NCBI GenBank assembly: GCA_013298595.1
Contig: JAAFIG010000024.1
Coordinates: 1-55,208, forward strand
Direction: 5' to 3'
DNA: 55,208 bases
DNA from: Deinococcales bacterium
Lineage (GTDB): Bacteria; Deinococcota; Deinococci; Deinococcales; JAAFIG01
Of the stretch, positions 52,005 to 55,208 are shown one piece after another (the first letter of the stretch is position 1; every line of letters starts with the position of its first letter). Below the pieces are notes generated by a model that worked only from the letters and a program-made list of their open reading frames with translations, had not been told where the DNA came from and did not search any database. The position numbers and the translations under genes are program-made.

Positions 52005-52040
52005 GCAAGGCTCGCATCTGGGAGGGGGCGCGAGCCTTGC
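52005..52040 (+). terminator. Hairpin after ald
   Basis: GCAAGGCTCGC (52005-52015) and GCGAGCCTTGC (52030-52040), 11-bp perfect stem, 14-base loop, then TT and A-rich DNA. No long T-run, so bidirectional action toward the convergent gene is possible. Confidence 0.6.
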
Positions 52041-52086
52041 TTAAAAATAATGTACTCGCGTTTCATGATTTTCGTGTGAACGCTGG

Positions 52087-52581
52087 CTAAATGTAATCAT
52101 TATCAGTGCTGAGCATAACTCGTGCAGCGGGTAGTAAAGCGATTTCTTGAAAACAATCATTCTCGAGAATGGTTTTGACATATTCTTCCAGTGTTGAATA
52201 GTTACTCAGGTATTCCCAAGTGCCATCTATTTGTAGTAAATATTGTTCGGTAAATAACGCTGCTGCATAAAACCACTCGAGTATGATGCCTTCTTCACGG
52301 CTTTCATTATCGGATATCATGCGTTGAATGGATACTTTAAAACCAGTTATTTGACTTGGTTTGATTTGTTGAAAGAATCCAAGAAAACCACCTGTTTTTT
52401 CTTCTGGAATGATTTCAACATCGATATTAAAAATCAGTTCATCTTCTGTGACCCAAGTAAATTTATGGTCACGGTAATACTCGAGCATGGCTTTGAATCC
52501 TTGCCCAATTGTAGATTGCTCGAGTGGCACAGGTAAATAAGATAAATATGTTTGGCGCATTTCAAGTTCAAAAGCGTTCAT
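52087..52581 (-). CDS. Unknown protein, tandem paralogue 1
   Basis: 164 aa, intact. Shares with the two genes upstream (on this strand) an N-terminal block, here YLSYLPVPLEQSTIGQGFKA then MLEYYRDHKFTWVTEDELIF, and a C-terminal block VKTILENDCFQEIALLPAAR. Middle portion GGFLGFFQQIKPSQITGFKV resembles paralogue 3 (GFLGLQKQLTKKVMGITLE). No signal peptide or membrane helix. No domain recognised; a cytoplasmic immunity or adaptor role is only a guess. TATAAT lies exactly 6 bases before ATG 52581. Confidence 0.65.
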   Translation of the reverse strand: MNAFELEMRQTYLSYLPVPLEQSTIGQGFKAMLEYYRDHKFTWVTEDELIFNIDVEIIPEEKTGGFLGFFQQIKPSQITGFKVSIQRMISDNESREEGIILEWFYAAALFTEQYLLQIDGTWEYLSNYSTLEEYVKTILENDCFQEIALLPAARVMLSTDNDYI

Positions 52582-52587
52582 ACTCGT

Positions 52588-52593
52588 ATTATA
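52588..52593 (-). promoter_or_regulatory. Leaderless -10 box of tandem paralogue 1
   Basis: Perfect TATAAT on the minus strand, 6 bases before ATG 52581. Confidence 0.7.
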
Positions 52594-52736
52594 TGAATTC
52601 CTGTTGGATTATTTGGAATTTGTCAAATGAATGATGGGTACACCGTGGTTTTCTGTAAAGATGGCTTGTTAGTGCTGTTTATAATTGATGATTAACTAAC
52701 TCAGTCCATTTATTTCACCATAACCCATTGTTATGT

Positions 52737-53183
52737 TCAAGAATCGATGAATTTTGCTTGACTGCTTTTTAAAAGAGCTAAACGCACAAACACATCATTA
52801 GAAAAAATAGCTTTCACAAATGCTTCAAGCGATTCATGGTCAGCACTGTCTTCATGAATTCCATCTAAAGTGGAAAAACCAAGATTCAGAAATTCAGCGG
52901 CTGGATAACCAAGTTGCAAACGAATCGTTACTGATTGTGCTTGATTTTGGATTTCTGAATCTTCAAAGCACAAGTCTGCAGTGACTAACACGAAAATAAG
53001 CGATGCACTTTTTGGAACTTCAAGGATTTCTAGTGCAAACAGCACTTCGTTGATGTCTCGACCAAATAGTTGATTACGATTGTACTCGAGTAGTGCTTTG
53101 AAAACTTGACCAAGGGTGATTTGATTTAAACCCGCAGGTAAATACTGAAAATAAGTGGTTTCGTTGGTGTTCTTTTGAGAACT
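52737..53183 (-). pseudogene. Tandem paralogue 2, start lost
   Basis: 148 codons open from a stop at 53184-53186 to the TGA at 52737. Homology to paralogue 1 begins almost at once (TYFQYLPAGLNQITLGQVFK, then ALLEYNRNQLFGRDINEVLF), but no ATG, GTG or TTG precedes it in frame. The first start is a GTG at 53045, after the conserved N-terminal block. An ATG at 53201-53199 lies in another frame and stops at once. The C-terminal block FVKAIFSNDVFVRLALLKSS is intact. It is probably a decaying copy; a sequencing error or frameshift near 53170-53190 is the alternative. Confidence 0.6.
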
Positions 53184-53218
53184 TTAACCTACTTTACTTC
53201 ATGGATTTCATAGCAGTG

Positions 53219-53794
53219 TTACTCGAGAGATTGATCGTTTAATTCAATTGAAAATTGGGTTGGTTGTAATAGTGCCAGTTGTTGAAAGGCAGGATGTTGA
53301 AAAACTTGCTCGAGAAAAGCTTCAATGTTGGGGTAATCGTGGCTGTTGATATTTGGTTGAGAATGTATTCTGTTTTGCTCAGCATCTAATTTTGCGAGTT
53401 CTGTGTTTGAGAAATGACCTTCGGTGGTAAACCAAAAATGAAGGTTTAGCCATTCGTTATGAAATTCGGTGGATTCGAGTGTGTCAGAGTCAAAGATATC
53501 CTCGAGTACTTCGATTGAACGTTCGTCTAACACACGTTCCAAGGTGATGCCCATAACTTTTTTGGTTAATTGTTTTTGTAAACCTAAAAAACCAAGCAGA
53601 GGAATAAACCCTTCTTGGGGGTATGTAACGGTTGAAGTCCAAACACTGAATAACAACACATCAGTCGCAGCCCAATCAAAAGTTTCTTTGTGTTGATATT
53701 GCACTAGGGCTTTGAGAGCTTCACCAATTGTGATTTTCTCAGGTGCAACATTTAAAAACCGTTTAAATTTTTTCTCAGATAAGGACAGATTCAT
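53219..53794 (-). CDS. Unknown protein, tandem paralogue 3
   Basis: 191 aa from ATG 53794, which overlaps the bshB1 stop by ATGA; ATG 53803 (three residues longer) also works. Shared blocks: ITIGEALKALVQYQHKETFD and FLEQVFQHPAFQQLALLQPT. About 25 residues longer than paralogue 1, through an insert near the end rich in Asn and Ser (NRIHSQPNINSHDYP). Coupled to bshB1, it may be read from the plsY promoter. Function unknown. Confidence 0.65.
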   Translation of the reverse strand: MNLSLSEKKFKRFLNVAPEKITIGEALKALVQYQHKETFDWAATDVLLFSVWTSTVTYPQEGFIPLLGFLGLQKQLTKKVMGITLERVLDERSIEVLEDIFDSDTLESTEFHNEWLNLHFWFTTEGHFSNTELAKLDAEQNRIHSQPNINSHDYPNIEAFLEQVFQHPAFQQLALLQPTQFSIELNDQSLE

Positions 53795-54492
53795 GGGTTC
53801 CATAAGAGTGGTACTCGAGATTCAAAAGCTTCGGCGTATTGCACACCAGCAAATGTTCCCCAGTACATTAAACGGGCTTTGCGTCGCTCGAGAATTTCTG
53901 GACTGACAGTTTCTGAGACTTTTTCACCACTAAATTGGCTGTGATGCGCCATGATAGCGGCTTGCCATTGCTCGAGCACTTCGGATACATCCACGAGCAC
54001 ATTGGCGTTGATTGGAGCATTGCCTTGATAATAAAGCACCCGTGTAACTTTATGTGGTGCGCCCTCGAGTTTGGCTTTGCGAAGACTCGCAAAATGCAGT
54101 GCCGAGGTGCATAACTCGGCTGCGCCTGTATGGTCTGGGTGACGATCTGTTTGGTGTGGTAGCAAAATGGTTTCTGGACGCGTATCACGGATGGCTTGGG
54201 CGACTTTTAAGCGGTACTCGAGTGAATCTTGTAATGTGCCATCAGGTAATTGCAAGTTGCCTCGGTAGGTTAATCCTATAATTTTTGCAGCAGTCATGGC
54301 TTCAGCGTCTCGAGTTTCCGGTGTGCCTAGGGTGCCCATTTCACCTCGAGTTAATTCCAGAACCCCAACGTGCTGACCAGTTTTAGCTGCTTTAATCAGT
54401 GTGCCGCCACAACCAATTTCGGCATCATCTGGATGGGGGGCTATGGCAAGAATATGCAGTGGCTCGAGTGAACCATAGATAAGGTGCGACAT
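53791..54492 (-). CDS. bshB1: LmbE/PIG-L deacetylase, probably BshB1
   Basis: 233 aa. Zinc motif AIAPHPDDAEIGCGG (His and two Asp), then ELTRGEMGTLGTPETR and the second His in RHPDHTGA. LmbE proteins of this form deacetylate GlcNAc-malate in bacillithiol synthesis, a pathway known in Deinococcus, or act on mycothiol-type substrates in other lineages. bshA and bshC are not in this window. The plsY stop overlaps its ATG by one base (TAATG). Confidence 0.85.
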   Translation of the reverse strand: MSHLIYGSLEPLHILAIAPHPDDAEIGCGGTLIKAAKTGQHVGVLELTRGEMGTLGTPETRDAEAMTAAKIIGLTYRGNLQLPDGTLQDSLEYRLKVAQAIRDTRPETILLPHQTDRHPDHTGAAELCTSALHFASLRKAKLEGAPHKVTRVLYYQGNAPINANVLVDVSEVLEQWQAAIMAHHSQFSGEKVSETVSPEILERRKARLMYWGTFAGVQYAEAFESRVPLLWNP

Positions 54493-55145
54493 TATTCGGC
54501 TTTCGGTTCAGGTTCAGTGACAGGTTTAGCCGTATCACTTGGGACAGGTGTTGTGTTTTTTTGATTAAATTGGCGTTCATTACCAGCGGCTAGGCGTTGT
54601 AGATTATCGCGGTGACGAAACATAATCAGCGTAAAAATCAGTGCCATCATCAGCACTTCCCACCAAGTGCGTTGCATGGCAATAGCAAGAATAATTGAAC
54701 AAAAAGAAGTAATCATGCTGCCTGCACTCGAGAACCGAGTAATTGCGACAACAGCGATAAAAATGGGTAGTAAGGCTAAGCCAAGCCCGATGTCTGAAAA
54801 GGCAATTACGCCGTAACTGGTGGCAACGCCTTTGCCACCTTTGAATGCCAAGAAAATACTGTAATTATGTCCAACAATGGCAAAGAAACCAACCAAAGCA
54901 ATTTCCCAGTCGGGCATTCCTAAAGCTCGAGCAATCAGCATTGGCACGCCGCCTTTAAGAATATCGGCAAGGGCAACCACCACGCCTGCGCTCCAACCAG
55001 CGGCACGTAACACATTCGTTGCGCCAGTGTTACCACTGCCAACTTTTTGAATGTCTACTTGGTATGTGCGTGCAACCAGCACGCCAAACGGAATTGCTCC
55101 GAAAATATATGCGACCACCGCTACCCACAAGATGTTCAGGTTCAC
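54492..55145 (-). CDS. plsY: Glycerol-3-phosphate acyltransferase PlsY
   Basis: 217 aa, five predicted membrane helices and three conserved motifs: GSGNTGATNVLR (motif 1), HNYSIFLAFKGGKGVATSYG (motif 2, with the GGKGVAT core), and motif 3 near FRHRDNLQRL. It uses acyl-phosphate for phospholipid synthesis. GTG 55145 is chosen because TATGAT ends 7 bases ahead; ATG 55157 lies within that box. C-terminal tail is rich in Pro, Thr and Glu (PVPSDTAKPVTEPEPKAE). Confidence 0.94.
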   Translation of the reverse strand: MNLNILWVAVVAYIFGAIPFGVLVARTYQVDIQKVGSGNTGATNVLRAAGWSAGVVVALADILKGGVPMLIARALGMPDWEIALVGFFAIVGHNYSIFLAFKGGKGVATSYGVIAFSDIGLGLALLPIFIAVVAITRFSSAGSMITSFCSIILAIAMQRTWWEVLMMALIFTLIMFRHRDNLQRLAAGNERQFNQKNTTPVPSDTAKPVTEPEPKAE

Positions 55146-55152
55146 GTTTTCT

Positions 55153-55158
55153 ATCATA
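55153..55158 (-). promoter_or_regulatory. Leaderless -10 box of plsY
   Basis: TATGAT on the minus strand, 7 bases before GTG 55145. Start region of the plsY-bshB1-paralogue 3 unit. Confidence 0.5.
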
Positions 55159-55208
55159 CGCCTAAGCTGTGAAGGCAGTGTGACTCGAGCCATGTAAGTA
55201 TCTCTGAA

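Follow-up and report, generated by a model that had tools for sequence, protein, structure and literature searches.

A family of small acidic proteins forming an old and rapidly diverging tail to a presumed plsY-bshB1 operon in Deinococcales, with one member lacking its start

Three adjacent reading frames on the minus strand of contig JAAFIG010000024.1 of a Deinococcales bacterium (assembly GCA_013298595.1; by "the window" we mean the whole analyzed stretch of 55,208 nucleotides) raise the questions of (i) whether they form a single protein family that existing profiles do not recognize; (ii) whether they arose by recent duplication and turn over as immunity or defence-associated genes do, as the original prediction proposed; and (iii) how the middle frame came to be without a start. 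Here, the frames are called P3, P2 and P1, in the order of transcription, and the locus comprises the following features:

54492–55193, minus strand: plsY, glycerol-3-phosphate acyltransferase (NCBIfam TIGR00023, 173.7 bits, cut-off 137.2; PF02660), the most upstream gene seen in the presumed operon
53791–54492, minus strand: bshB1, bacillithiol biosynthesis deacetylase (NCBIfam TIGR04001, 224.9 bits, cut-off 182.5; PF02585)
53219–53794, minus strand: P3, family member of 191 amino acids (open reading frame; an alternative ATG at 53803 gives the frame 53219–53803)
53198–53228, minus strand: 31-nucleotide copy, 84% identical, of 53790–53820 (bshB1 tail and P3 start), lying before P2 (direct-repeat scan)
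52737–53183, minus strand: P2, family member whose conserved N-terminus is preceded by no in-frame start (stop-to-stop frame, 148 codons open)
52087–52581, minus strand: P1, family member of 164 amino acids with an ATG start and a pI of 4.2 (open reading frame)
52006–52041, no strand assigned: strong terminator-like hairpin in the gap where P1 and the convergent ald gene end (RNA fold)

P3, P2 and P1 are thus encoded directly behind plsY and bshB1, both of which were named from curated NCBIfam equivalog models that scored above cut-off, and this arrangement is found in one bacterial family of Deinococcales. On the minus strand, transcription runs from plsY through bshB1, P3 and P2 to P1. The bshB1 gene overlaps plsY by one base, and the P3 ATG at 53794 forms an ATGA overlap with the bshB1 stop codon. 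Overlaps of this type are a common sign of translational coupling; P3 would be coupled to bshB1 in this way, and the spacing of the genes suggests that all three frames are co-transcribed with plsY-bshB1. The hairpin at 52006–52041 (RNA fold, −22.2 kcal/mol, z −4.6) separates P1 from the convergent alanine dehydrogenase gene (ald); the consensus terminator scan, which permits only shorter loops, does not list it.

Pairwise comparison shows that the three frames encode members of one family of small acidic proteins. By BLASTP, P1 and P2 are 31% identical (E 1.3e-17, over 145 alignment columns with no internal stop), P1 and P3 24% (E 1.2e-10), and P2 and P3 21% (E 1.4e-5), and each of these pairwise scores exceeded those of all 500 shuffles. 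The frames share a block that reads IGQGFKAML, LGQVFKALL and IGEALKALV, and a C-terminal block (IALL, LALL and LALL), while only L16, G26 and F144 are invariant in the family alignment. The proteins have pI values of 4.1–4.8 and no strongly hydrophobic segment. All three frames are coding-like in their codon usage (scores of 0.139 for P1, 0.153 for P2 and 0.161 for P3), and the genes, at 37–38% GC, are AT-richer than nearly all of the larger genes in the window. Neither Pfam, NCBIfam, PADLOC nor PHROGs yielded a match above the curated cut-off or with an E-value below 1e-3; the best profile match, of P2 to PF06227 (E 0.054; 13.7 bits, where the cut-off is 23.6), was taken as chance, and a hand-made family consensus likewise gave only a chance-level match to Pfam. 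The PDB, too, yielded no member of the family. The original description of a tandem, unrecognized family with shared blocks is borne out by these results, with BLASTP E-values from 1e-5 to 1e-17 and no profile match.

AlphaFold2 models built from five sequences gave a pLDDT of 83.6 for P1 and 68.9 for P3, and the secondary structure elements follow one another alike in both models: a pair of helices, a meander of three strands, further helices and a last strand. The best Foldseek match to the PDB had an E-value of 0.47. VIA-align repeatedly returned the polycystin/TRPML luminal domain as the best match (P1: Z 4.7, rmsd 6.7, 114 residues aligned; P3: Z 5.3, rmsd 4.9, 111 residues aligned), in both cases below the level to be trusted, and these matches were not used.

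A search with alignment A1 identified the family in two of 111 Deinococcota genomes: the source genome, which contains only these three members, and a Deinococcales MAG of a second genus (JANYHH01) of the same bacterial family. In the latter (contig JANYHH010000038.1), two members, Q2 and Q1, lie in the gene order plsY-bshB1-Q2-Q1, and hence in the same position and order as in the source locus; P1 matches its homolog there with an E-value of 6.7e-14. The lack of homologs beyond this locus, which had been named in advance as grounds for abandoning the proposal, was therefore not what we found. The search did not recover the family from any of the remaining 109 Deinococcota genomes; matches in other genomes with E-values of 0.006–0.2, mostly inside much larger open frames, were taken as chance. 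Nor was it recovered from 396 genomes of one other phylum (that of a Terriglobia MAG, locus L040), a search that had no positive control. No relatives were found in genome contigs (query P1), viral contigs (queries P1, P3 and Q1), plasmids (query P1) or phages (query Q1). On these sequence searches, the family looks restricted to one bacterial family of Deinococcales, a very narrow distribution.

Conversely, bshB1 has no family member behind it in a genome of the genus JANXTZ01 (locus L011), at locus L026, in Calidithermus (L027) or in a Truepera MAG (L028); plsY was seen upstream of bshB1 in all of these except L026, which is on a short contig. Since the plsY-bshB1 pair stands without the family in three of these loci, the family was probably added later, behind an older gene pair. 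The only other genome of the same genus in the set searched gave no good match to plsY or bshB1 and is therefore uninformative about the locus. Two further observations concern the neighborhood: in the JANXTZ01 genome, a protein without an NCBIfam match (L011, 3701–4402) is encoded behind bshB1, where the family sits in the two genera that have it; and in the JANYHH01 genome, a gene resembling DpgA, a type III polyketide synthase-like gene (L012, 5816–7111; NF042429 match below cut-off), is convergent with the family, at the place that ald occupies in the window.

That the array is recent was part of the original prediction, and here the data point the other way. The codon-aligned nucleotide identity of P1, P2 and P3 is 47–49%, their protein identity is 21–31%, and the array is common to another genus, so that recent tandem duplication was rejected. 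Because the second genus contains two members in the same place and order, and because members of the family share only about 17–31% protein identity, we consider the array to be the old and fast-diverging tail of the presumed plsY-bshB1 operon. P1 and Q1 are 29% identical, compared to 64–66% for the neighboring BshB1 proteins, and the family thus diverges far faster than its neighbor; as P1 is about as similar to P2 as it is to Q1, the copies are either about as old as the split between the genera or evolve very fast. A tree of the five proteins is saturated and unresolved, with P1 and P2 weakly joined (82/90). The orthology of P3 with Q2 is a matter of position: compared directly by BLAST, the two score no higher than shuffles do, and the only link between them runs through Q1 and P1.

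The claim that the middle paralog lacks an in-frame start before its conserved N-terminus was confirmed: the P2 frame is open from 53183, and no ATG, GTG or TTG occurs until the GTG at 53045, which lies past the conserved N-terminus. If pseudogenes are defined as genes that lack a usable start codon or whose frame is broken within the conserved part, P2 qualifies as one. Immediately before it lies the copy at 53198–53228, the only direct-repeat family of at least 14 nucleotides found in the region; its alignment score is 37, whereas 300 dinucleotide shuffles reached 23 at most. This copy starts beside the CTCGAG that forms the last two codons of P3 and extends roughly to the point at which the frame breaks off. 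Its ATGs (53211 and 53202) are out of the P2 frame and run into a stop ending at 53194; the start region of P2 therefore resembles that of P3 and no longer leads into the P2 body. The simplest reading of the break, drawn from a single repeat that was noticed post hoc, would be a local rearrangement or a small copied segment; alternatively, the copy may be an older duplicated start region that has been retained. P2 would accordingly be a pseudogene inactivated by this local rearrangement, and its siblings would remain functional.

P2 might nevertheless be translated, its body being made from a non-AUG start, by reinitiation after the 5-codon frame 53211–53194, or as a short form from the GTG at 53045. 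The 148 open codons, a codon usage like that of P1 and P3, and the uninterrupted alignment to P1 speak for translation. However, no ordinary start precedes the conserved N-terminus, the short form would lack the two N-terminal helices, and the 5-codon frame has already terminated where the P2 frame opens. The two do not overlap, and a programmed frameshift, which could not join them, was rejected for this reason. The open body is itself a weak sign of continued translation, since shortly after inactivation neutral change would leave it stop-free with a probability of 0.73 at 2% and 0.30 at 8%. We consider translation of P2 unlikely. An intact gene disguised by an assembly or sequencing error is suggested by the draft state of the source genome (68 contigs) and the otherwise intact P2 body, but one simple slip would be insufficient to restore a frame whose ATG-led part ends before the P2 frame opens, and the break falls just at the border of the copied segment; we regard such an error as quite unlikely.

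A broken copy among tandem, acidic, fast-diverging small proteins with no conserved polar residues and a narrow distribution is also what an immunity or defence array would present, in which paralogs with fast turnover neutralize toxins or act against phages. Yet the proteins have no match in PADLOC, Pfam or PHROGs, the searches of viral contigs, phages and plasmids brought up no relative, and the second genus has them at the identical housekeeping position. Moreover, the neighbors examined in the annotated part of the window (ald, bshB1, plsY, an AsnC-type regulator, an acyl-CoA dehydrogenase and a pyrophosphatase) are housekeeping genes, among which no toxin, phage or defence gene was recognized. 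The proposed association with immunity or defence thus finds no footing at this plsY-bshB1 locus, and we hold it to be distinctly improbable.

The palindrome CTCGAG is extremely over-represented in the window as a whole, with 380 sites compared to 11 predicted from base composition. It had been described as sparse at the array; the 1717-bp P1–P3 region does contain 8 sites where the window mean is 11.9, but 15% of equal-length stretches have 8 or fewer, so that the deficit is within the normal spread and not notable. Other loci show the same over-representation, with 56 sites in 9 kb (L011), 67 in 12 kb (L012), 44 in 4.1 kb (L026), 35 in the 10.7 kb from Calidithermus (L027) and 22 in the 10.7 kb from the Truepera MAG (L028), where 1–4 would be expected in each. 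This resembles cyanobacterial HIP1. The main text of a review of HIP (PMC4390886) contains no mention of CTCGAG, Deinococcus or Thermus, and we found no literature linking CTCGAG with the term "highly iterated palindrome". Sites are present at 53222–53227, the CTCGAG that forms the last two codons of P3 and at which the 31-nucleotide copy starts, and at 53814–53819. The iterated palindrome may serve as a recombination point.

As only a leucine, a glycine and a phenylalanine are invariant, and as the proteins are acidic and without strongly hydrophobic segments, they would be soluble, non-enzymatic binding or regulatory proteins rather than enzymes. Their most plausible service would be in the pathway of the shared operon or in a lineage-specific stress response. 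Most of the bshB1 loci read here lack the family, so that bacillithiol and phospholipid synthesis do not require it, and PlsY and BshB1 must be able to work without it. We therefore favor, as somewhat probable, an old operon-tail family of putative accessory binding proteins produced together with PlsY and BshB1, in which P2 was broken locally. A bolder version seems quite improbable to us: a new family whose members, perhaps of an uncommon alpha+beta fold, act in one Deinococcales lineage as modulators of bacillithiol or phospholipid synthesis. Its paralogs would have diversified inside the operon, and a short copied segment with the genome's iterated CTCGAG palindrome at its borders would have rebuilt or broken one of them.

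The family is real, old and lineage-restricted, with one broken member, and represents ordinary ORFan-type biology. Its constant position behind a conserved gene pair in two genera makes some role there probable, and it presents a well-defined object of study in a bacterial family of Deinococcota that has received little attention. The corrected reading is one of old, divergent paralogs with one decayed start instead of recent, immune-type turnover. Arrays of polymorphic-toxin immunity genes, as a general class, likewise encode small acidic proteins that lie in tandem and have diverged, one copy being in decay; they differ from the present array, which has no recognized toxin gene, no known immunity profile, and a stable housekeeping locus in two genera. 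The closest point of reference is the plsY-bshB1 pair of Deinococcota (TIGR00023, TIGR04001) itself. Other loci have the pair without the family, and the family has no sequence match to PlsY or BshB1; it is nevertheless to this pair, which we read in the window, two sister genera, Calidithermus and a Truepera MAG, that the family is appended.
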